Assembly: GCA_028289465.1 (NCBI GenBank)
Contig: JANQPM010000028.1
Span: forward strand, 1 to 52,590
Length of the DNA: 52,590 bases
Direction: 5' to 3'
DNA from: Lysobacterales bacterium
GTDB lineage: Bacteria; Pseudomonadota; Gammaproteobacteria; Xanthomonadales; SZUA-36
The notes under the pieces were generated by a model that saw only the letters and a list, made by a program, of their open reading frames with translations, made no database searches and was not told the origin of the DNA. A program made the translations under genes and the position numbers. Positions 1-11,493 of the stretch are shown piece after piece (the stretch's first letter is position 1; each line of letters starts with the position of its first letter).

Positions 1-109
1 TACCGTGGTGCCGGGCGTGCTGTTCACCAACCGGCCGCTGAAACAACCGGCCGGTTCGCTGCGCGAATTGTCCGCGTCCATTCTGGCCGAATTCGAACAG
101 TCGCGGTGA
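1..109 (+). CDS. C-terminal end of a probable alkaline-phosphatase-superfamily protein (partial)
   Basis: The window opens inside a reading frame (codons start at base 2) that ends with TGA at 107-109. Only about 35 residues are visible, and they include GVLFTNRPL and later LRELSASILAEFE. This resembles the C-terminal end of type I phosphodiesterase/alkaline-phosphatase-superfamily proteins, where a 'GVLF..RP' strand precedes a 'dlaPTILaeFG'-like helix; here the PT pair is replaced. That match is from memory of the family and is weak. The gene lies 166 bases ahead of a second AP-superfamily gene on the same strand, so it may belong to the same cluster. The 5' part is outside the window, so active-site residues cannot be seen. 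Confidence 0.4.
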   Translation, partial: TVVPGVLFTNRPLKQPAGSLRELSASILAEFEQSR

Positions 110-275
110 GTGTTGCGCGCGCCAACTTCTTGCCATTAAGATAATCCGCTTTTGGTAAAGCCCTCCGGCAAGGATCTCGCGCTTGAACGGGTACGGTCGC
201 CAACTACCGCTTCGCTGCGGCCAACGACATGCACCGTGGTTTTCGCAGCGTATCGGAAACTGCGCGCCGCCAGCC

Positions 276-2438
276 ATGCTTCATAAGTGCCTGGCCGCGG
301 TCCCGATATTTATGCCAGTGGCATGTTTGCTGGCCGTATTTATGCTGGCCGCCTGCCAACAGCAACCGCAGCCGCGCTGGAATGTGCTGCTGGTCACGTT
401 CGATACAACCCGGGCCGATTTCATCGGCGCTTACGGCAAGGAAGACGCAAGCACGCCCACGCTGGACGGCATGGCCGCCAACGGCACCCTTTTTGAGCGG
501 GCCATGTCCAGCAACCCGGTTACCCAGCCTTCCCACTCGACCATACTGACCGGTACCTATCCGCTGGCGCACGGTGTTCGGGACAACGGGCTGTTCAAGC
601 TGCCGGAAGCCAGCGAAACGCTGGCTGAAATTCTACGCGCGAACGGCTACCGCACCGGTGCCGCGATAGGCGGTTTTCCTCTGGTCAGGAGCTTCGGTCT
701 GGACCAGGGTTTCGACTTCTACGACGATCATCTGACCGCGGTACGTCAGGACCACCGCGGGCGTCCGGCAGCGCGAGCCCGCAACACCTGGTACGACGAG
801 CGTCCGGCCAGCCATGTGAACGACGCCATTTTGCCGTGGCTGCGCGAGCCCGGCGACCGGCCCTTCTTTGTCTGGCTGCATTACTGGGATCCGCATCATC
901 CGCATATCGCGCCGCCGCCCTACGGACAGCAATTCGAACATGACCCGTACCAGGGAGAAATTGCCTATGCCGACCAGAGTCTGGGTGTCATCCTGCGCGA
1001 TCTGGAATTTCGCGGCGAATTGGACCGTACCATCGTCGTGGTCACCTCCGATCACGGCGAGGGCCGTGGCGAGCACCGGGAAGAAACGCATGCGTTTCTA
1101 GCCTATGACCCGACGCTGCATGTGCCGCTGATTATGCAGGTACCCGACGGGCCAAAGGGGCAGCGCGTTGTCGAACGGGTCGGCACGGTGGATATTGTGC
1201 CGACCGTTCTGGACCTGCTGGGCATTCAAACGCCGGCCGCGGTCCAGGGGCGTTCACTGGTGCAGTTGATGAACCAGCCGGCAGAACCGGCGCCGCGCAA
1301 CCGGCACCGCTATTATTCCGAAAGCATGTCACCCCGCTTCTCGCACGACTTCGGTGAGCTGCGCGCGCTGTATTGGGGGCCTTATAAATTCATCCACGGC
1401 CCGCGTTCCGAACTGTTCAATCTGACTGAAGATCTGGCGGAACTGCATGACCTGATCGGCACCGACCCTGAACTGGCCCGGGAAATGGAGTCGGGGCTGA
1501 AGGACTTCATCGAACAATACGCCAGTCCGGTGGCGGCAGCGGCCACGCATGATTTTGACGAAAGCGTTCGGCGGCGGCTGGCCGCGCTGGGCTATCTGTC
1601 CACTTCCGAAGACAATGCCTCGACCGTCAGCGAAACCCTGCGCACCGACGGTATTGCACCGCAGGACCGGGTCGGCGAAGTCAACCTCCAGCAGCGTTTA
1701 CGCCAGTTGCTGGGCAGAGGTCAGTTCAAGCTGGCCGAGCAAATACTCAAGCGCCTGCTTGGCCCCTACCCGGACCACCCCTACTACCAGGCGAAACTGG
1801 CGCTGGTTTATCTGGGCCAGAACAAGACCGACGCGGCAGCAGCGGTGGTTGACAATACCGACGCCATCGAACCGGCACATGTCACCGATTACCTGGCGGT
1901 CGCGGAATCTTTATTCGCCGCCGGGCAGCAGCAGCGCGGGCTCGCGATGATCACACGCATAACCGAATCGGCCCGAAGCGCACCGGCCTACATGGCGCTG
2001 GCGCGAATGCACCGGCAACGCGACGAAGACGATGCGTTTCTTGCCGCGATAGAAAACGCTCTCGAAGCCCAGTCCGACCACCTCGGTGCGCGCCTCGAAC
2101 TGGCCCGATACCGAATCGAATCCGGCGCGTATCAGCAGGCCGAAGAGCTACTGACCGGTCTGCTGGCCGACTACCCGATTCATCCCGAAGTGAATCTCTG
2201 GTTCGCCCGCTGGTTAAATCAAACCGGCGATTCAGCCGGGGCTATCTCGCGGCTGGACCGCATACTGACGCTATGGCCCGGCCGCTGCGCCGCCCACCTG
2301 CAGCGCCTGGAATGGCTGACCGATGAGCAGCAATCCGGCCGCCTGGAGGCAGCGCAACGGGAACTGCAGAAATACTGCCGCGATCAGGAAACCCTGAGCC
2401 GCGCCACGGAACTGCTGGGAGATGCCTATGCGGGTTGA
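276..2438 (+). CDS. Sulfatase-fold (alkaline phosphatase superfamily) lipoprotein with C-terminal TPR repeats
   Basis: The protein has about 720 residues. A signal peptide ends in the lipobox LAAC (Cys27), so an envelope lipoprotein is predicted. The sulfatase-fold domain follows: FDTTRAD near residues 42-48 (metal ligands), TQPSH near 83-87 at the nucleophile position, a WDPHHPH segment, and TSDHG near 257-261. The nucleophile position is Thr, not the Cys or Ser that would mature to formylglycine, so this is more likely a phosphate-ester hydrolase or transferase than a true sulfatase. Residues about 475-720 are TPR-like helical repeats. The ATG at 276 was chosen because it places a clean lipoprotein signal at the N-terminus; a TTG at 183 has a good AAGGA site 8 bases upstream and would add 31 uncharacteristic residues. 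The 3' end overlaps the next gene, suggesting an operon with the PPIase and the 1030-aa fusion. The substrate is unknown. Confidence 0.8.
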   Translation: MLHKCLAAVPIFMPVACLLAVFMLAACQQQPQPRWNVLLVTFDTTRADFIGAYGKEDASTPTLDGMAANGTLFERAMSSNPVTQPSHSTILTGTYPLAHGVRDNGLFKLPEASETLAEILRANGYRTGAAIGGFPLVRSFGLDQGFDFYDDHLTAVRQDHRGRPAARARNTWYDERPASHVNDAILPWLREPGDRPFFVWLHYWDPHHPHIAPPPYGQQFEHDPYQGEIAYADQSLGVILRDLEFRGELDRTIVVVTSDHGEGRGEHREETHAFLAYDPTLHVPLIMQVPDGPKGQRVVERVGTVDIVPTVLDLLGIQTPAAVQGRSLVQLMNQPAEPAPRNRHRYYSESMSPRFSHDFGELRALYWGPYKFIHGPRSELFNLTEDLAELHDLIGTDPELAREMESGLKDFIEQYASPVAAAATHDFDESVRRRLAALGYLSTSEDNASTVSETLRTDGIAPQDRVGEVNLQQRLRQLLGRGQFKLAEQILKRLLGPYPDHPYYQAKLALVYLGQNKTDAAAAVVDNTDAIEPAHVTDYLAVAESLFAAGQQQRGLAMITRITESARSAPAYMALARMHRQRDEDDAFLAAIENALEAQSDHLGARLELARYRIESGAYQQAEELLTGLLADYPIHPEVNLWFARWLNQTGDSAGAISRLDRILTLWPGRCAAHLQRLEWLTDEQQSGRLEAAQRELQKYCRDQETLSRATELLGDAYAG

Positions 2439-4209
2439 AGCCTGCATTCCGGCGGCGTTGCTGCTGCTGACGCTCGGCGCCTGCGAACCGCAGCAAAAGC
2501 CAGGCAGCGCAGCGTCCCCGCCGACGGCAGCCGATGCAGTAGCCAGCTATCGCGAACGCGATATCTCGCTGGCCGCGGTAGAAGCGGAGATCGCTGCCGC
2601 CAATACTCCTGCCTGCACCCAGGCCAAAGGCGAGCCCGGCAGGGGTTCGCTGGAAACCCTGCTGCCCTGCTACCGGGAGGTGGCCGAAGCGCTGGCCATC
2701 GAAGGCATTGTGCTCGCAGGCCTGTCCGATTCGAATCCGGCCGCCGCGGAACTTGACGATGACATGACCGGACAGCGCGATGCCAGCCTGCTGAATGCCT
2801 ATTCGCAGCAGCTCGCCGATCAACTCGAGGTCAGCGAGGCGGAAATTACCCGCTACTTCGATGACCACAGGGAACAACTAGGCACGCCGCGTCAGTTCAC
2901 CCTGTTTAATATTTTTCGCCGCCACCAGGACCCGGCCAGCCCGGAGGAAACCGTCGCGTTTCTGAACCAGTTGAAATCACGCATCGAAGCCGGCGAAACC
3001 TTCACCGCCATTGCACGCCGGCATTCCGATTCCGAAACGCGGCTGAGAGACGGTCTGGTCGGGCACCTGTCTGAAGACAAACTGCCGGAGCGCCTGCGCC
3101 GTATCGCAGCCGGACTCAAGGCCGGCCAGGTAAGCGAACCACTGCCGGTCAGTGGCGGCGCGGTTATCATCAAGGTCGAAAACATCGCGCCGCCGGTGAT
3201 TCCCGATCTGGAAAATCTGCGTACCGGTATTCGCGCCCTGCTGTTGCAGCAAAAGACCGATGAAGCGGTTGATCTGCGCGCATCGGCCCAGCCTGTGCCG
3301 GCGGACGCGGTGTTGCTGGAGGATGACGAACTGGTGGCGGCGCTGGATGGCGACGATCCCGAACAGGTGGTATTCGACCTGGGCGGGCAGCGCCTGAGCC
3401 GTGCGGAATTCCGCCGTATCGCGAATATGGGGCCGGCCCAGACGGCGGCCGAGCTGCCGACCGCCCGCCGGGACGAGTTGCGCCAGATTTACTACCAGCT
3501 AAAGCAACGACGGCTGCTGCTGATCAGCCTGCTGGAATCCGACCATCCGGCCGATCGGGAACTGCGTGAACAAATCGAAGAGCCGCTGCAGAAAATGCGG
3601 CTTGCACGACTCACCGACCAGCTGCTGCAACAGGATATGTGGCAGGCGGTGGACCGGGACCCGGCATCGCTGGAACGCTACTACCGGGATAACGTGCATC
3701 ACTATCAGAGTCCGTTGAAGTTCAAGCTGCACCGGTGGCAACTGCCGTTTGACCACGACCCGTCGGCACAGTTGGCCGCAATGGAAACCCTGCGTGCGGC
3801 AATGACACGAGGGGAGCATGACCTGGGCAGCGCCGTGCAAAAGCTCGGCGGAACGGTGGAAAACCCGGGCTGGCAGGACTTCGCCGATCTGACCGACTTG
3901 CCGGCCAAGGCGCGCAGCTACCTGCTGCAGGCGCCGGCCGGCGGCTACAGCATTCCGTATCAGCAGAACGACACGCTGCATATGATCTGGGTGGAAGCGC
4001 GCCAGTCACCTTCCGCGCTACCCTACCAGCAGGTGACCGAACAGGTGCGGGAAGACTACTTCAGCCGCTTTGAGCGGCGGCTGTATCAGGACGCGGTAAA
4101 CCGGCGTCTGGCGGCTGCCGATTTCACCTTTCACACGGATAACGTCCGGCGCTTGCTGCTGCCGCCAGGGGTGGAAAAAGAAGCCGTATTGCCGGCCGGG
4201 CATCCTTGA
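2428..4209 (+). CDS. Parvulin-type peptidyl-prolyl isomerase lipoprotein
   Basis: A protein of about 593 residues. The N-terminus is a lipoprotein signal (LLLLTLGAC), so it is probably anchored in the envelope. A PpiC-type rotamase domain lies around residues 145-255 (FTLFNIFRR; ARRHSDSET; GLVGHLSEDKLP; a closing VIIKVENI strand). A second, degraded parvulin-like segment is around 425-525 (KFKLHRWQLPF; then NPGWQDF). Helical regions between them resemble SurA/PrsA-type chaperone parts. Two start codons are six bases apart, ATG 2422 and ATG 2428; GGGAG at 2417-2421 is well spaced only for 2428. It overlaps the upstream TPR-sulfatase by 11 bases and the downstream gene by 4. The likely role is folding of exported proteins, perhaps clients from the same cluster; that client link is inference. 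Confidence 0.8.
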   Translation: MRVEACIPAALLLLTLGACEPQQKPGSAASPPTAADAVASYRERDISLAAVEAEIAAANTPACTQAKGEPGRGSLETLLPCYREVAEALAIEGIVLAGLSDSNPAAAELDDDMTGQRDASLLNAYSQQLADQLEVSEAEITRYFDDHREQLGTPRQFTLFNIFRRHQDPASPEETVAFLNQLKSRIEAGETFTAIARRHSDSETRLRDGLVGHLSEDKLPERLRRIAAGLKAGQVSEPLPVSGGAVIIKVENIAPPVIPDLENLRTGIRALLLQQKTDEAVDLRASAQPVPADAVLLEDDELVAALDGDDPEQVVFDLGGQRLSRAEFRRIANMGPAQTAAELPTARRDELRQIYYQLKQRRLLLISLLESDHPADRELREQIEEPLQKMRLARLTDQLLQQDMWQAVDRDPASLERYYRDNVHHYQSPLKFKLHRWQLPFDHDPSAQLAAMETLRAAMTRGEHDLGSAVQKLGGTVENPGWQDFADLTDLPAKARSYLLQAPAGGYSIPYQQNDTLHMIWVEARQSPSALPYQQVTEQVREDYFSRFERRLYQDAVNRRLAAADFTFHTDNVRRLLLPPGVEKEAVLPAGHP

Positions 4210-7200
4210 ACGAGCACACCGGTACGCCGCCAACCCGTACCCGCCTGGCACTGCTGCTGGGCTGCTTTCTGCTGTCGGGGGTGGCCGGGCTGATCTATGA
4301 GACCGCGTGGACACAGCAGTTCTCACTGGTATTCGGGACCTCGGAGCTGGCAGTCGCCGCAGTGCTGGCGGCATACATGGCCGGTTTGGCCGCGGGCGCC
4401 GGCCTCGCCGCGCGCTGGGCCAGGCGCGTGCGTCGGCCGCTGGTGGCCTATGCATTGATAGAACTCGGCGTTGCCGCGGCCGCGTTGCTGGTGCCGCTGG
4501 GGCTTAAATGGGCATCGGCCATCCAGCTCACTGTGCTTGGCAGCGTCGCGCTGGCCCCGGAATCGGCGTCACTGGCATCGGCACTGTTCTATCTGCTCGC
4601 CGCGTTCGCGGTATTGATGTTACCGACCACCCTGATGGGCGCCAGCCTGCCGGTCCTGGTTCGTCAAACGATCACCGAGGACGCGCAAATCGGCGCCCGG
4701 GTCGGCTGGCTGTATGCAGTCAACACCGGCGGTGCAGCCGCCGGCACACTGCTGGCCGCGTATCTACTGCTGCCGCGTCTGGGTCTGAACGGAACTGTAC
4801 TGGCCGCCGTATCAATCAATGTTGCGGTTTTTCTGCTGGCATTAACGCTGGCGCGTTTCAGCGGTCCGGCCAAGGTCATCGACGGCGCGCGCACCCGGCC
4901 CCTCCGGGGCGCTCGATGGATTCTGCCACTGATATTCGTGTCCGGCATCGTATCGTTTTCCTACGAGGTGCTGTGGACCCGGCTGCTCAGCCATCTGCTG
5001 GGCGGCACGCTGTTCGCTTTCGCAACCATGCTGGCAACCTTTCTGGGCGGAATCACGCTGGGTTCGGCGGCGGCCAGTTTCTACGCCAAAGACCCGGCCA
5101 GCGCGCGCAGGGGTTTTCTGATCGCCCAACTGGGCATCGCGGTTTGCTTTTTGGCCGCCTTCGGGTTCGCCGACGGGCTGACATCTTTTGCCGCCGGCCT
5201 GGCCTCAGGCGGTGGCTCATTCGCCAATATCGCGCTGCTGTCCGCGGCGACCTTGCTGCCCGGCGCGCTGTTTATCGGTGCTGCTTTTCCGTTTGCAGTG
5301 CGTTTGCTGGCCGGTTCCGCAGCCGATGCCGCACCGGCCAGCGGACGGGTTTTCGCATGGAATACCACCGGCGCGATACTCGGCGCTGTCGGCAGCGGAT
5401 TTTTTCTGCTGCCGACACTGCATTTTGCCGGCACGGTACTGGCAGCGACCGCAACAAGCCTGCTGCTTGCGGTATTGACCGCGCTTGGGCCAAAACCGCG
5501 GCTTTGGCGGTGGGCGGTTCCGGCCTTCGCTGTCATGCTGATGGTCTACTGGTGGCCGCCACAACAGCCGGAGCGCGTACTGCGGACCTCGCCATTGACC
5601 GGCAAACCGGTTGTGGGCGACCTGGCCTTCAGTGCCGTCGGCCGAAGTGCAACCACCTTGCTGGTCAGACAGGGACCGAGATGGCGCCTGACGACCAATG
5701 GCCTGCCCGAATCGCAAATTCAGTTGGCCGGCGGCCGCATGGCCCCTGTCTCAATTGCACACTGGCTGGGCCTGCTGCCGCTGGTCAGCCAGCCCGATGC
5801 ACAATCCATGCTGGTCATCGGTTTCGGCGCCGGCCGCACTCTGGAGGCCATCGCCCCCACCGTTGAAGCGCTGCACGTTGTCGAACTGGAACCCGAAGTC
5901 ATTCACGCTAACAGGCTGGTTGCAGCCCGGCGCAGCGACAACCCGTTTGCCGATCCGCGGCTGAAGATTCATCTGAATGACGCGCGCAGTGGACTGCAGC
6001 TGGCCGATCAGCAGTTTGACGCTATCGTTTCTCAGCCTTCCCACCCGTGGACCGCCGGTGCCAGTCATTTGTTTACCCAGGAATTCTTCACTCTGGTTCG
6101 GCAGCGGCTGAACCCGGACGGCGTGTTTGTACAGTGGATCGGCCTGCCCTTTGTCGATCGCCAGACGCTGCTGTCGCTGCTCGCGAGCCTGAATGAAGTA
6201 TTCGACCATGTCGAACTGTATCAACCGCCGCCGGGTGGTGCTGTGCTGTTTCTGGCATCGATGGGCGCACCGACATCCGAGCCTGCAGCGGCGCGCGCGC
6301 TGCAAAATGGCGGCACCCTGTGGCATCGGCTGGGCGTGCTGAATGCGCAGGATATTCTGGCCACCCGAATACTGGATGCCGACGCCTCCCGGCAGATCGC
6401 CGCCAACGCACCGGCAAACCGGGACAATCGCAACCTGCTGCGTCTGCGACCACCGGGCGCGCGTATCAAGAACCTGGACCAGCAAAGCTTTCGGCAGCTC
6501 GTTGCGAAATACGACCCCTTAGGTCAATGGCAACCGGAAAATGGCGATCTGTATCTGTTGCGCCGGTTGTTGGCGGCGCGACAACTGCTGCGCGCCCGCC
6601 AACTGGCCGAGAACCTCGCCGATCAGAACCTGATGCGTACGGCCCAGGCCCTGATCGACCTTAGGCTGCCGGCAAAACGCGAGGCGGCAAAACAGACACT
6701 GGCGCAATCCTTGATGACCGACCCGGATTCCGATGAAGCATTCTATGCGTTGCTGGGCGCCCACCAAGCGGCAGTGATCGCCGGCGACGTTCCGGCTGCG
6801 CTCGCAACCCGCCTGGCCACCGATCCGGTCGCCCGGACCGTTGTCAGCGGCTGGCAGTTCAGCAGTAGCCGGAACACGGCCAAAATCTCGACGCTGGAAA
6901 CCGCGCTGGCCGACATTCCGGCGTCCCATCCGTTGTATTCAAATGCGATTCGGCTGCGCGTCGCCTGGCGGCTCGCCAGCGGCGACCCGGTAAAAGCCCG
7001 CGAAGGCATTCGGCTTTATGATCCCATCCTGGCACTGGACGCGAATCCGCACGAGCTGCTCATTCGGGCCCGGCTGGCCGCGCTGGCGCAGCAGCCCGAA
7101 GCGGTCATCAGCACCTTGTATGAAGTCGCCGGCAAGATAAACACGCGCCGCGGACCGCGGCGACGGGCGCTGGCCATCGAGTCGCTAAAACTGCTGGACA

Positions 7201-7298
7201 ACCTGCCACCGACCCCGGGTCATGCGGCATTGATCGACGATCTGCGTGCCCGGCTCGCGTTTCCAAGACTGATTGAAGCCAGCCATTCCGGTCAGTAG
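4206..7298 (+). CDS. Polytopic membrane protein fused to a spermidine-synthase-like domain and TPR region
   Basis: A 1030-residue three-part protein. Residues 1 to about 460 are a chain of hydrophobic helices beginning FLLSGVAGLIYETAW, typical of the 'fused MFS/spermidine synthase' family. Residues about 470-720 form a Rossmann methyltransferase/aminopropyltransferase-like domain with a SAM-type glycine loop (LVIGFGAGRTLE, about 535-546), an acidic strand end (VVELEPE) and DAIVSQPSHPW in place of the usual DxxDP region. Residues about 770-1030 are alpha-helical TPR-like repeats. The TTG start at 4206 overlaps the PPIase stop (TTGA), which indicates translational coupling. Such proteins are annotated as spermidine synthases, but aminopropyl transfer has not been generally shown and the substrate here is unknown. 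A second, shorter membrane protein with the same kind of domain is encoded on the other strand at 8070. Confidence 0.8.
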   Translation: MNEHTGTPPTRTRLALLLGCFLLSGVAGLIYETAWTQQFSLVFGTSELAVAAVLAAYMAGLAAGAGLAARWARRVRRPLVAYALIELGVAAAALLVPLGLKWASAIQLTVLGSVALAPESASLASALFYLLAAFAVLMLPTTLMGASLPVLVRQTITEDAQIGARVGWLYAVNTGGAAAGTLLAAYLLLPRLGLNGTVLAAVSINVAVFLLALTLARFSGPAKVIDGARTRPLRGARWILPLIFVSGIVSFSYEVLWTRLLSHLLGGTLFAFATMLATFLGGITLGSAAASFYAKDPASARRGFLIAQLGIAVCFLAAFGFADGLTSFAAGLASGGGSFANIALLSAATLLPGALFIGAAFPFAVRLLAGSAADAAPASGRVFAWNTTGAILGAVGSGFFLLPTLHFAGTVLAATATSLLLAVLTALGPKPRLWRWAVPAFAVMLMVYWWPPQQPERVLRTSPLTGKPVVGDLAFSAVGRSATTLLVRQGPRWRLTTNGLPESQIQLAGGRMAPVSIAHWLGLLPLVSQPDAQSMLVIGFGAGRTLEAIAPTVEALHVVELEPEVIHANRLVAARRSDNPFADPRLKIHLNDARSGLQLADQQFDAIVSQPSHPWTAGASHLFTQEFFTLVRQRLNPDGVFVQWIGLPFVDRQTLLSLLASLNEVFDHVELYQPPPGGAVLFLASMGAPTSEPAAARALQNGGTLWHRLGVLNAQDILATRILDADASRQIAANAPANRDNRNLLRLRPPGARIKNLDQQSFRQLVAKYDPLGQWQPENGDLYLLRRLLAARQLLRARQLAENLADQNLMRTAQALIDLRLPAKREAAKQTLAQSLMTDPDSDEAFYALLGAHQAAVIAGDVPAALATRLATDPVARTVVSGWQFSSSRNTAKISTLETALADIPASHPLYSNAIRLRVAWRLASGDPVKAREGIRLYDPILALDANPHELLIRARLAALAQQPEAVISTLYEVAGKINTRRGPRRRALAIESLKLLDNLPPTPGHAALIDDLRARLAFPRLIEASHSGQ

Positions 7299-7463
7299 CC
7301 GGCGTTCATTACGGTGACTAAAGCCATACTTGATTGACAGTGCAAATGGGCGTGTGCCAGACTCATCTACGAAAGTAGCTGTTGTTTTGCAACGAGTGTG
7401 GCTGCGCGATTGTTGGGGGTGTAGCAACGATTCCGACAAGTTAGCCGGGAGGCAAAGATAGCC

Positions 7464-7985
7464 ATGAGAAAAAGAACCTTTCCCCTGAACCCTCTTAAGA
7501 AGAGCCTTTTCAAAACCGGCGTCATCGCCGCTGCCCTGTCAGTCGGAGCGTCAGTTCAAGCCGCAGCGCCCGAAACCTGCAACACCGGTGTGATGTGTAC
7601 CGGCACCGGCCTGACCTTGAACTGTACGATTTCCCTGAGTCCTTTTGACGGCATGGCTTCCCTGGTGCATTTCATCGGCCAGCAGGTCGGCACCAACGGC
7701 ATTAATAACAATGCGATCTGTATTCAGGGCAATGTGACCAATACCTTTACCGGTTCGACCATGCAGGTCGCCTTTGGCATCAATACCAATATGTTCCCGC
7801 TGCTGCTGCAGGCGCGTAAGAACCCGACTGCCAATGTAACCAATCCGACCTGCCGGTTTGTCTGGAAAACGCAAAGCTATGCGACCACTTCCATCTGTAC
7901 CATCAACATGGCGGACGGTCTGCCGGTCGAACTGATGGAGTTCGAAGTGGAAAGCAGCACCGATTCCGAAGAACAGAGCGACTGA
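7464..7985 (+). CDS. Small secreted protein of unknown function with acidic C-terminal tail
   Basis: A protein of 173 residues. It begins with a basic n-region and a hydrophobic stretch (VIAAALSVGASVQAAAPE), giving a clear Sec signal peptide with AXA cleavage near residue 33. The mature part is rich in Thr, Asn and Gly, looks beta-rich, and has six cysteines in CNTG, MCTG, NCTI, ICIQ, CRFVW and ICTI, which could form disulfides. Near the C-terminus is GLPVELMEFEVE followed by a Ser/Glu/Asp-rich tail. Short PVEL-x-x-F motifs occur near the C-termini of various exported proteins, but I cannot assign a sorting system and no hydrophobic anchor follows. A GGGAGG site lies 11 bases before the ATG. 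It is separated from the upstream operon by 165 bases and is followed by a strong hairpin, so it is probably its own transcript. I do not recognise the family. Confidence 0.8.
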   Translation: MRKRTFPLNPLKKSLFKTGVIAAALSVGASVQAAAPETCNTGVMCTGTGLTLNCTISLSPFDGMASLVHFIGQQVGTNGINNNAICIQGNVTNTFTGSTMQVAFGINTNMFPLLLQARKNPTANVTNPTCRFVWKTQSYATTSICTINMADGLPVELMEFEVESSTDSEEQSD

Positions 7986-8013
7986 CACGCTATCTTAAAC
8001 CGTTGAATGACCG

Positions 8014-8037
8014 AACACGCCCCGCCAGGGGCGTGTT
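8014..8037. terminator. Bidirectional hairpin terminator between convergent genes
   Basis: A perfect 10-bp stem (AACACGCCCC paired with GGGGCGTGTT) closes a GCCA loop, in the 84-base gap between the convergent genes ending at 7985 (+) and 8070 (-). On the + strand the stem continues into TTCGTTAT, which is T-containing but not a pure T run. Position and symmetry suit a terminator acting in both directions. Confidence 0.7.
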
Positions 8038-8069
8038 TCGTTATGGGCTCCTGCTAATACTGCCGGTTA

Positions 8070-9476
8070 CTACTGCCGGTCCAGAAAAGAACGGTTCTTG
8101 GTATCGCTGTATATCGTTCCCGGCTCCGCATCCGGATGGTCGCGGTAGATATACAGCGTACCGCTGAATCGTGCCGGATCGTCATTCCATGGCATATATC
8201 GGCGGAAGATCACATGCCGGGAGACATGCGGAAAAACGCTGCGGAAGGTACTGTCGATATTGCGGCTGAACGCATTGGCGAAATTCGGCGATGCAACGAT
8301 ATTGGCTACAACCACGCCATTCGGCTTCAAATGGCGCTTCACTTGTAGAAAAAATTCGCGGGTGATCAAGTGCTCCGGAATGGTGAACCGGCCGAAATAC
8401 GCATCGAGCAGAATCATATCGTAGCGCTTGTCGCTTTGCGCCAGGAACGCTCGCGCCGGCAATGGGTGGAAGGTTTTGTTCTCTCCGATATCCTGCTTCA
8501 GAATTTTCTCCTGCGCGATACCTTTCAGGCTGCCGTCGATATCGACATAATCATAGCGGTTATGCCGGTCATGGTGGCCAAAGGTAAACGCACCGGCACC
8601 GACGACCAGAATCTCCTTCGGCGGATCGGCCTGCAGAACCGGCCGAATGGCAAACGCCTCGAGCAGTTCCACATAGGGATACCGAAGGCCCGACTCGGAA
8701 TACTTCGACGAGGGATCGTTATTCAGATAAAGGTGACGGCCATCGTTGCGTTCTTTTACCGCAATCACGTTGTAGCGGTTCATTTCCACGATGTCATAGC
8801 GTCTGACAAATGCATTACTGTTAATGACCGTACCGACGATCGCCAGCGCCAGCGCCGTAACGGTAAACCCGGACAGTTTTCGCTTGCTGATCAGCACCGT
8901 CAGCGCCGCCAGGATTACGAACACAACCACCGCCGTATAATTCACCCCGATGACCGCCATCAGTACCAGCGAGGAAAGTACCGCGCCGAGAAAGGAACCC
9001 ACGGTAGAGAAAAACAAAATACGCCCGGTAATATCGGCCAGGCGCCGGCGGCCGAAATAGTTGCTGACCAGCGGGATGGTCTGGCCCAGAAGATAGACCG
9101 GGACAACCAGAAAAATTCCGGAATAAAGCGTGATCTGGACCAGCCGGTGACTCAAACCCACCCGGTTCGCCAATTGGTATAACTCGACCAATAACACATA
9201 AGACAGACCGGGAATCAGGATAGCCAGCGCCAACAACAGATTGAACATCAGCTTGCGCCGAATGCTGCGCCGGCCGGACGGCCTGAATCTGCCGCCGGCG
9301 TAGTAGCCCAATGCCAGCGGCATCAAGACTGCCGCGATGATGACCGATACGGTCTCTGTACCGCTGCCGGTAAACGGAATATTCAGCCGAATCGCCAGCA
9401 ATTCCGTTGCCAGCACGGCATATCCTTCGAGAACGATGATCGCAAAGAGATAAAAAGTACTTTTTTTAGTATGCAT
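8070..9476 (-). CDS. Membrane protein with spermidine-synthase-like domain
   Basis: A protein of about 468 residues. Residues 1-225 hold about six hydrophobic helices starting FAIIVLEGYAVLATELLA, the same 'E.yA' type of opening as fused MFS/spermidine-synthase proteins. The C-terminal half carries a Rossmann aminopropyltransferase-like domain: EILVVGAGAFTFG (about 288-300), the acidic strand end YVDID, then DMILLDAYFG (about 353-362) and LKPNGVVVANIVAS. The ATG at 9476 was preferred over a TTG at 9518 because AGG lies about 8 bases upstream and the helix then starts near the N-terminus. No TPR region is present, unlike the 1030-aa protein nearby. Two such proteins within 5 kb suggests a shared pathway; the reaction cannot be read from sequence. 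Confidence 0.75.
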   Translation of the reverse strand: MHTKKSTFYLFAIIVLEGYAVLATELLAIRLNIPFTGSGTETVSVIIAAVLMPLALGYYAGGRFRPSGRRSIRRKLMFNLLLALAILIPGLSYVLLVELYQLANRVGLSHRLVQITLYSGIFLVVPVYLLGQTIPLVSNYFGRRRLADITGRILFFSTVGSFLGAVLSSLVLMAVIGVNYTAVVVFVILAALTVLISKRKLSGFTVTALALAIVGTVINSNAFVRRYDIVEMNRYNVIAVKERNDGRHLYLNNDPSSKYSESGLRYPYVELLEAFAIRPVLQADPPKEILVVGAGAFTFGHHDRHNRYDYVDIDGSLKGIAQEKILKQDIGENKTFHPLPARAFLAQSDKRYDMILLDAYFGRFTIPEHLITREFFLQVKRHLKPNGVVVANIVASPNFANAFSRNIDSTFRSVFPHVSRHVIFRRYMPWNDDPARFSGTLYIYRDHPDAEPGTIYSDTKNRSFLDRQ

Positions 9477-9761
9477 TGCTTTACCTGTACGCTGGCGTCG
9501 GCAAAGAGCCGTATTCAACGGATTTACCGTTGAGCCGCAGGGGAATGCATTCGAACGGCGATGAAAATCCGGGTCGGTTCCGGCCTATAGTCGTCCGCCG
9601 TTAGTCCCCCGAATCCAGTGACCGAAAAACACCGGCCATGCCGCACCAGTATTGAATCTGGCATGCACGGAGTCAACCCAGTCGGCAGGTCCGAAAACCG
9701 AAACGGGCATCCGGGCCGGCAGTTGCACTTGTGAACGGAATTCAAGTATTCTTTGGAATCA

Positions 9762-9849
9762 GCGATGCCGGTGGGGACAGCATCGCCAAACCCCTGAGTA
9801 AGTATTGAGGTAACAATTACTCAGCCTGTGAACCTGAGGGGGTACTCGG
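9762..9849 (+). promoter_or_regulatory. Structured 5' leader of the UbiA-family gene, possible translational switch
   Basis: Within the 373-base gap between divergent genes, the last 90 bases before the UbiA start carry two perfect hairpins: GCGATGC (9762-9768) with GCATCGC (9780-9786), and CTGAGTAA (9794-9801) with TTACTCAG (9817-9824). The left arm of the second, CTGAGTA, can instead pair with TACTCGG (9843-9849), directly before the TTG start, and the adjacent ACCCC (9790-9794) can pair with GGGGT in the Shine-Dalgarno run (GAGGGGG, 9836-9842). The pairings are visible; the idea that they exclude each other to control translation is inference. I match it to no known riboswitch. The rest of the gap (9477-9761) shows nothing I can assign beyond presumed divergent promoters. 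Confidence 0.4.
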
Positions 9850-10887
9850 TTGAGCAGCCGCAATATGTGCTGCAACAACCTCTGCTTCGAAAATGGCTTG
9901 CGTCATTGGCGAAAAGGCAAAGGTATAGTGGCCCGTTCAAGTTTGAAATACCCCACGGCGGCGCCTGAGCGAGTCAATCGCCGGCATTATCCGGATCAGG
10001 CAACGCACTGGACCGACTGGTTCGTCGAGATTCGTGTTCACCACTGGATCAAGAATACCCTGGTCTTCGCACCGCTGGCATTCACACCGCAGTTGTTTTC
10101 CGTCGATTCGCTGACCCGATGCCTGCTCGGTTTCGTCGCGCTGAGTATTGCCTGTTCCGGAACCTACCTGTTTAACGACGTGCTCGATTACCAGGCGGAC
10201 CGGCAGCACTGGTCCAAGCGCAGACGGCCCGTAGCCAGCGGCCGTATTTCCATGATCTCGGCGCTGCTTGCCGCGGCCGGTCTCTGTACGCTGGGCCTGA
10301 CCCTGGCACTGGCGGTCGACGGCTGGTTCGCGATTTTCCTCAGCGCCTATATCCTGATGTCGCTGGCTTATTCCTACCACCTGAAATCACTGGCTCTACT
10401 GGACCTGGTCGCTCTGGCCACCATGTTCAGCCTGAGGATCATGATGGGAACGGCGCTGATCGGCGCGGCATTTTCGCCATGGTTGCCAGTGTTCGTGTTT
10501 TTGTTCTTTGGCGGGCTGTCAACCGCCAAGCGAACCACCGAGCTGGTCAACAGAAATCAAAGAGACGACCATTCCAACAACCGGCGCTGCTATCAAGAAG
10601 AAGACCTGCCATTGCTGATCGCTTTCGGCATCAGTTTCAGCATCGGCGCGCTGATCCTGCTCAGCGTTTTTATTCCCACCGTAGCCATGGCCGATGCGAT
10701 GTACCGCTCACCGCTGCGGCTGTGGATTGCAGCCCCGCTGATACTGATATGGACATTGCGAATCTGGGCGCTGGCAGTACGCGGAAACCTGACCGACGAC
10801 CCCGTGCTGTTCGCACTGAAGGACCAGTTCTCCATTATTATCGGTACGCTGATCGCGCTGTCGCTGCTGAGTATTCATATACCGTAG
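9850..10887 (+). CDS. UbiA-family prenyltransferase, decaprenyl-phosphate phosphoribosyltransferase-like
   Basis: The 345-residue reading frame encodes a polytopic membrane protein. The family motifs are VHHWIKNTLVFAPL (about 64-77), the Asp-rich motif FNDVLDYQADRQH (about 108-120) followed by KRRRPVASG, and a later KRTTEL segment. This pattern matches the branch of UbiA proteins that transfers phosphoribose to polyprenyl phosphate (DPPR synthase type) better than the quinone-pathway UbiA. That would make a polyprenyl-linked sugar donor for envelope glycans; the actual acceptor is unproven. The TTG at 9850 sits 7 bases after GAGGGGG; ATG 9865 and a GTG near 9928 are alternatives, and the first 45 residues are not typical. 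No polysaccharide genes are adjacent; its neighbours are the spermidine-synthase-like membrane protein and the tRNA-Thr repeats. Confidence 0.75.
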   Translation: MSSRNMCCNNLCFENGLRHWRKGKGIVARSSLKYPTAAPERVNRRHYPDQATHWTDWFVEIRVHHWIKNTLVFAPLAFTPQLFSVDSLTRCLLGFVALSIACSGTYLFNDVLDYQADRQHWSKRRRPVASGRISMISALLAAAGLCTLGLTLALAVDGWFAIFLSAYILMSLAYSYHLKSLALLDLVALATMFSLRIMMGTALIGAAFSPWLPVFVFLFFGGLSTAKRTTELVNRNQRDDHSNNRRCYQEEDLPLLIAFGISFSIGALILLSVFIPTVAMADAMYRSPLRLWIAAPLILIWTLRIWALAVRGNLTDDPVLFALKDQFSIIIGTLIALSLLSIHIP

Positions 10888-10929: not shown

Positions 10930-11360
10930 CCTAACCTGCGATTCGAATTGTGAAGCCCCTACCGCTGCAGTCGAAACTGTACGCACTGGAATACTCCCCG
11001 GCAGCAGCGAATGGTGTGCTTACGCGCAACGCGCGTATGAAGCCTTGAGCGGAAACAGACCCCCGAAACGCCGGTTGACGGATTGCTCCGCGCGCTGCGC
11101 GTGCTCGCGGTCTTCGTTCGCTGCGCTCACTACGGTCCGAATCCGGGGTTCGAATTGAGAAACCCTGACTCCCGCAACCCAAACTGTACGCACTGGAATA
11201 CTCCCCGGCAGCAGCGAATGGTGTGCTTACGCGCAACGCGCGTATGAAGCCTTGAGCGGAAACAGACCCCGAAACGCCGGTTGACGGATTGCTCCGCGCG
11301 CTGCGCGTGCTCGCGGTCTCCGCAGGCTTTGCCTGCTCCGGCCCGAACCTGCGGTTCGAA
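10930..11360. repeat. Tandem 0.2-kb repeats containing tRNA-Thr 3'-end fragments
   Basis: Two nearly identical blocks of about 140 bases lie at 10974-11113 and 11181-11319 (offset 207), differing mainly by one C in a C run. Each contains GCCGGTTGACGGATT (11070-11084 and 11276-11290), which is exactly the 3' acceptor/T-arm segment of the neighbouring tRNA-Thr gene (11422-11436). Between and around the blocks are three T-arm-like stretches containing TTCGAATTG (near 10942, 11151 and 11356). On the strand of the tRNA these repeats lie directly downstream of it. A 153-codon open frame runs through them only because the period is a multiple of three. No gene is seen in this 530-base gap. Confidence 0.8.
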
Positions 11361-11417
11361 TTGTGGTTTCGCTTCGCGTCCGCGGAACACAAGCGACTCG
11401 GTATTCGGTAGGGTAAT

Positions 11418-11493
11418 TGGTGCCGGTTGACGGATTCGAACCGCCGACCTACTGATTACAAATCAGTTGCTCTACCAGCTGAGCTAAACCGGC
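11418..11493 (-). tRNA. thrT: tRNA-Thr (anticodon UGU)
   Basis: Read on the minus strand, the gene starts GCCGGTTTAGCTCAG and ends AACCGGCACCA, with a 7-bp acceptor stem, a D-arm (GCTCAGCTGGTAGAGC), an anticodon arm CTGATTTGTAATCAG with anticodon TGT, an AGGTC variable loop and the T-loop GTTCGAATC. The CCA end is encoded (11418-11420). This is the standard bacterial tRNA-Thr(UGU) design. Fragments of its 3' end are repeated downstream. Confidence 0.97.

Follow-up and report, generated by a model that had tools for sequence, protein, structure and literature searches.

Among the described systems that sort exported proteins by a C-terminal signal, one of the closest is the type IX secretion system (T9SS) of Bacteroidota, in which the sortase PorU cleaves and/or transfers the cargo. 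The signal of that system is a folded C-terminal domain (CTD) found on multiple cargoes. In T9SS a linking sugar attaches the cargo to a glycolipid (PMC7468200). The pairing of many tagged proteins with one processing enzyme has been recognised from phyletic profiles for PEP-CTERM and exosortase, GlyGly-CTERM and rhombosortase, and MYXO-CTERM and myxosortase (PMC1569441, PMC3237569, PMC11980579); the tags of these CTERM pairs consist of a motif, a transmembrane helix and a basic tail, and the enzyme is embedded in the membrane. In the donor-strand complementation of chaperone-usher pilins an Ig/FN3-like fold that is short of one strand is completed by another chain, and swapping of the N-terminal strand (strand A) of an FN3 domain has been solved in PDB 4m6a.

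The window analysed here is the whole of a 52,590-nucleotide contig (JANQPM010000028.1, designated C74) from a Lysobacterales bacterium (assembly GCA_028289465.1) whose genome comprises 2.95 Mb in 121 contigs. Sequence comparisons and structure models together make it probable that the gene cluster at the beginning of the window belongs to a system for sorting or processing proteins by a C-terminal tag, the other components being a receptor that lacks one strand and a C25 peptidase related to PorU. Like the tags of the CTERM pairs, the tag is carried by many cargoes and is co-distributed with one enzyme, the C25 peptidase; unlike them it consists of one short strand, not followed by a helix, and the peptidase is accompanied by a separate receptor. 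It looks like an undescribed protein-sorting system, one that resembles T9SS and the CTERM pairs but has a type of tag and a receptor that match neither. No description of the tag motif, of PorU outside Bacteroidota or of the three accessory genes treated below was found in the literature searched.

Distribution of the tag, the receptor and the C25 peptidase

The exported cargo of the window is a protein of 173 amino acids with a signal peptide (7464-7985, + strand). Its C-terminus is DGLPVELMEFEVE-SSTDSEEQSD, the tag LPVELMEFEVE (7920-7952, + strand) being followed by an acidic tail of ten residues. The protein has no match in Pfam or NCBIfam, and the tag motif was pursued because a search with the protein alone as query gave a single weak relative. 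In related genomes the three genes that precede it are flanked by further exported proteins ending in PVELxxFxxE.

A strict, codon-degenerate pattern, PVELxxFx(V/I/M)(D/E) followed by a stop, was used with the reversed pattern as a control. Among 61 related genomes the strict tag was found in eight, with no match for the control; all eight are among the ten genomes with a strong C25 peptidase, and none of the 51 others has it (p 1.5e-8). When the stop was not required, the motif was situated near a stop at 20 of 21 sites in the C25-positive genomes, one of these 20 (L058) looking spurious, as against three of nine sites elsewhere. A scan of 369 genomes across the class gave a real tag with stop in the genome of the window only; a match in G235 was discarded because of an in-frame stop. 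In 28 genomes chosen for the presence of C25, the strict tag was found in 21, in up to 20 copies, and the control in none of the 28. Variants of the tag are LPVELIEYDVQ in G044 and LPAELTTFEVSED in G045.

The consensus of 68 tagged proteins is [LVTI]PVEL[QM]SFS[VI][ED]. Termination is exactly at the last residue of the motif in 61 of the 68, and the same number have a signal-peptide-like start according to a simple heuristic. With the tag removed, the 68 proteins fall into 41 sequence clusters, among which are FG-GAP, kelch and P-domain proteins, and a single tag is thus shared by many exported proteins that are not homologous to one another. In G045 (Xanthomonadaceae bacterium DHS20C11) more than 20 tagged proteins are dispersed over many contigs, some of them close to each other (for example C45:27160 and 27449, C47:6747 and 9796). 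Proteins of the FG-GAP/UnbV (CRTAC) type recur beside C25 and tagged proteins (L037:14438-16042, L038:16349-18571 and L146:7153-8790).

The receptor and the peptidase of this genome are encoded at the end of contig C26, which most likely precedes the window. The receptor is an open reading frame (ORF) of 125 amino acids (L055:9663-10040, - strand) that adjoins the C25 gene (L055:10041-12686, - strand). Its start resembles a signal peptide, and it contains a single conserved domain with the pattern WxTASExxNFGFDVYRG...GAGTTDxxxxYxFxDxxI...YYYVESIS...RxxFTP, in which 15 columns are invariant over 39 sequences. With thresholds of E<1e-50 for C25 and E<1e-17 for the receptor, the two were found in an identical set of 10 of the 61 related genomes, distributed over seven families of which most also contain negative genomes. 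The chance of obtaining the identical set is 1 in C(61,10), about 1e-11, uncorrected for kinship. A strong receptor was present in two of the 369 genomes across the class. Loci with C25 occur across the Lysobacterales (Dokdonella, Tahibacter, Pseudofulvimonas and Rudaea) and in Acidobacteriota, where the set of tag, receptor and C25 recurs. Of 80 such loci, 22 have the receptor no more than 500 bp from C25 and another 16 have it at some other place in the locus; in L231 it is fused to the peptidase.

The C25 profile matches the PorU structure 6za2 (E 2.8e-32). The best NCBIfam match of the C25 protein is PorU (NF033707), with 238 bits where the cut-off is 420, and the protein is therefore a relative of PorU and not an equivalog.

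Other domains of the same kind were observed. Large C25 surface proteins of another type (G000:C41:54177-56570, in L108 and L174, with similar ones in G039, G043 and G059) have such a domain before the peptidase, in some cases with an intact strand A. Diverged C-terminal receptor-like domains without strand A are found in L292 (residues 451-536 of 538) and L184 (534-612 of 620) and possibly constitute a second receptor family. Two C25-receptor pairs are present in G028 (L052 and L147) and three receptor-like genes in G047 (L167, L173 and L176), and these duplications suggest paralogous tag specificities.

Correspondence of tag and receptor to a single domain

In Bacteroidota proteins annotated as 'T9SS type A sorting domain-containing' (Flammeovirga, Aureispira and Hymenobacter), the sequence LP[VI]ELxxFxA, a short loop and WxTAxE form one domain. 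Both halves are likewise part of one domain in a gammaproteobacterial relative (L288). All 44 receptors match this intact domain only from position 7-22 onward, and a strand-A motif upstream of the receptor domain was found in none of the 44. AlphaFold predicted an FN3-like sandwich for the intact domain and for the receptor (predicted local distance difference test, pLDDT, 90.9 each). The first strand of the intact model is VELTGFAAKR (strand A, residues 9-18) and the first strand of the receptor model is B. When compared with the titin FN3 domain 4o00, the intact model was aligned from residue 3 and the receptor from residue 19, and the comparisons with 3mpc and with Ihog (2ic2) behaved in the same way.

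The sequence halves, the predicted strands and the starts of the FN3 alignments agree, so that the receptor appears to be a domain without strand A and the tag to be the counterpart of that strand. This correspondence is specific, and from it we infer that tag and receptor physically meet, probably recognising each other by strand complementation. The predicted arrangement is similar to that of the chaperone-usher pilins, in that a fold minus one strand would be completed by another chain, and to the strand swapping in 4m6a. It differs from both in that the strand would come from the C-terminal tag of many unrelated cargoes, there would be one receptor, and no polymer would be formed, as judged from sequences and models.

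The similarities to T9SS are thus the relationship between the C25 peptidase and PorU, the C-terminal signal on multiple cargoes, and the presence in T9SS type A cargo of a single domain that is divided here between tag and receptor. The differences are that the peptidase is below the equivalog cut-off, that the signal is a short terminal strand and not a folded CTD, and that the system is found in Lysobacterales and Acidobacteriota. The SprA/Sov translocon model (TIGR04189) had no match in 14 C25-positive genomes, but gave none in the control genomes either. T9SS cargo carries a C-terminal CTD of type A or B; none of the tagged proteins scanned matched a T9SS model.

Putative accessory genes and proposed mechanism

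Three genes upstream of the tagged protein overlap one another on the + strand, as had been reported in a preliminary description of the window. They encode a lipoprotein with a sulfatase fold (AP superfamily) and TPR, here called SULF-TPR (ORF 183-2438, likely start 276; PF00884, TPR_19), a parvulin-type peptidyl-prolyl isomerase lipoprotein (2422-4209; PF13145, PF00639), which adjoins SULF-TPR in relatives, and SPD, a fusion of an MFS-like membrane part with a spermidine-synthase-like part and a long C-terminal extension (4206-7298; NF037959, PF01564). TPR had been assigned to this fusion too, but Pfam finds it in the first gene only. Downstream of the tagged protein are a second membrane spermidine-synthase-like protein (8070-9518, - strand; NF037959) and a UbiA-family protein similar to polyprenyl-phosphate phosphoribosyltransferases, in the branch of the decaprenyl-phosphate phosphoribosyltransferase (9850-10887, + strand; NF006088/PRK12324). 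All six genes of the preliminary description were recovered at the positions given there.

Strong orthologues of SULF-TPR (E<1e-90) were found only in G000, G040, G043, G044 and G045, all of which have C25 and the receptor. Strong orthologues of SPD are present in four of these five genomes, the relatives among them being G040, G043 and G045 only. When a trio-type locus was defined by at least two of SULF-TPR, the isomerase and SPD, ten such loci were obtained (one in the genome of the window, two in G040, one in G043, one in G044, two in G045, and L201, L220 and L255). A tagged protein was present in each of the ten; that of the locus on C18 of G045 ends in the variant LPAELTTFEVSED. The earlier suggestion that the set deals with an exported protein agrees with this finding, and the trio is thus seen as accessory to certain tagged cargoes, a role that we infer from the linkage.

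The expectation that all six genes would occur together in relatives was borne out for the first three, which are found together in G040, G043 and G045, but not for the gene at 8070-9518, for which the fetched loci contained no linked orthologue and which is probably a bystander. The two spermidine-synthase-like genes, which had been singled out as a pair, are accordingly not conserved as one. That label holds in so far as the domains are related to spermidine synthase; they are relatives only. In SPD the sequence SQPSHP is aligned to the catalytic segment SDCTDP (D-x-x-D-P) of E. coli SpeE and the catalytic Asp is not kept. Aminopropyl transfer by SPD was rejected because this motif is lost, and the aminopropyl chemistry considered earlier is unlikely. 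SULF-TPR has T-Q-P-S-H in place of the formylglycine motif C/S-x-P-S-R of sulfatases, and T-x-P-S-H is also found in the homologues of G045 and G040. Because of this replacement, sulfate-ester chemistry was rejected, and the sequence makes phospho-transfer or hydrolysis the likelier activity.

The proposal that the UbiA protein contributes to a polyprenyl-phosphate sugar has been strengthened by a DprE1-like gene (L055:7006-8793, - strand; 301 bits) and a DprE2-like gene (L055:6260-6997, - strand) next to the C25 peptidase at the end of C26. UbiA-type PPPRS and DprE1/E2 together produce ribose or arabinose linked to polyprenyl phosphate, for transfer outside the cytoplasm, and lipid-linked pentose is a known donor in extracytoplasmic glycosylation (PMC11127046). 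All three types of gene were found beside C25 in the genome of the window, in G028 and in L180. In G028 a tagged protein and C25 immediately adjoin a UbiA gene of 65% identity, and UbiA-type genes lie near C25 in further loci. All-against-all clustering of the neighbouring genes was dominated by antisense ORFs in these high-GC genomes, and of the clusters obtained those of the receptor and of UbiA alone were relied on. The gene content predicts a polyprenyl-phosphate pentose. The likeness to the polyprenyl-phosphate pentofuranose pathway consists in the UbiA branch and the DprE1-like and DprE2-like genes; the difference is that the genes here are below the equivalog cut-offs and were not observed in the vicinity of most of the remaining C25 loci. 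That a pentose would serve as the linking sugar, by analogy with T9SS, is speculation.

In the mechanism proposed, the cargo would be exported by means of its signal peptide with the strand at its end. The FN3-like domain without strand A would be borne by a small receptor that is itself exported and in many cases a lipoprotein, and the tag would supply this strand, so that the cargo is captured by complementation. The PorU-like peptidase, with its His/Cys pair, would most likely cleave and/or transfer the captured cargo. In some genomes the trio may assist particular tagged cargoes, and in some the polyprenyl-phosphate pentose pathway may do so. In its fullest form, which is put forward tentatively and with slightly less than even confidence, C25 would join the strand-tagged cargo to a surface anchor, possibly one based on polyprenyl-phosphate pentose, and the parts would descend from a single-piece type IX cargo domain.

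Several observations weigh against the proposed system. The identification of the receptor as FN3 comes from the predicted structure, sequence matches in PDB being weak. In 42 of the 80 C25 loci no receptor was found in the fetched flanks, which were short in 15 of the 42. G047 and seven of the 28 genomes selected for C25 gave no match to the strict tag, and the tag of the cargo in the window is followed by a tail of ten residues. The catalogue of tags was gathered with the motif pattern itself, whereby its internal conservation is partly selected, with the controls and the co-distribution unaffected. Many of the genomes sampled are metagenome-assembled genomes.

Among the alternatives, the most probable is a non-covalent display in which the receptor itself anchors the tagged proteins by strand complementation and C25 is merely a maturation protease, with no covalent link formed. 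A lipobox-like motif in 17 of the 44 receptors is in keeping with such an anchor, as is the fact that the tag, in contrast to those of the LPXTG or PEP-CTERM type, has neither a transmembrane helix nor a basic tail. The close linkage of C25 and receptor and their fusion in L231 point instead to a joint step, and the catalytic His and Cys are kept in all 80 C25 proteins; display of this kind is judged somewhat unlikely. The preliminary description had read the genes as a self-contained envelope-modification cluster of AP-superfamily, isomerase, two spermidine-synthase-like and UbiA proteins acting on a glycan or on one exported protein. This was supported in part, in that the trio forms a conserved block and a lipid-linked pentose is predicted from UbiA, DprE1 and DprE2, but the tag, the receptor, the PorU-like peptidase and the fact that the cargo is one of many were overlooked. 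Given that strong trio members were found only in genomes with C25 and receptor, with a tagged protein beside them in every locus read, and that the second spermidine-synthase-like gene is unlinked elsewhere, a self-contained cluster is improbable. Slightly more improbable still is a signal for degradation or quality control, by which receptor and C25 would remove proteins with an exposed C-terminus in the manner of DegS and Tsp. A protease beside a binder of C-terminal peptides would also suit proteolysis, but dozens of unrelated proteins with signal peptides have the tag encoded as their native C-terminus, and among enzymes of solved structure the nearest is PorU, a sortase. Coincidence, with receptors as decayed domains and PVEL motifs arising by chance, could appeal to the FN3-like domains starting with LPVEL in Bacteroidota surface proteins but is very improbable in view of the invariant columns of the receptors, the exact phyletic match and the empty control searches in the 61 and the 28 genomes.

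If the proposed sorting system is real, a common fate would be assigned in some Lysobacterales and Acidobacteriota to tens of exported proteins in each genome that are so far uncharacterised, and a sortase-like C25 would exist outside Bacteroidota with a signal far simpler than the T9SS CTD. Recognition of the tag by a naturally split domain could then be tested directly, by means of a short peptide and a domain of roughly 95 residues, and the natural pair could serve as a laboratory tool. Cultured strains with C25 and receptor are Pseudofulvimonas gallinarii DSM 21944, Tahibacter harae and Tahibacter aquaticus.

Contig junction and adjacent elements

The window begins with the final 35 codons (2-109, + strand) of a gene for an AP-superfamily phosphodiesterase-like lipoprotein, AP2 (PF01663), the remainder of which is at the end of C26 (L055:12885-14777, + strand). 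Bases 1-37 of the window are identical to a stretch at that end, giving a contig overlap of 37 bp. Across the joint AP2 is a single ORF of 649 amino acids, and its match in G040 spans the joint. This continuity in sequence is the reason for regarding the end of C26 as most likely the left neighbour of the window. At its end C26 folds back, C26:49753-49778 being an inverted copy of window positions 31-56; this is an assembly artefact at the contig junction.

After the end of the UbiA gene a tRNA-Thr is located at 11418-11493. The segment beside it (10931-11392) is repetitive; its translation repeats SVSAQGFIRALRVSTPFAAAGEYSSAYS and it is probably a non-coding repeat element.

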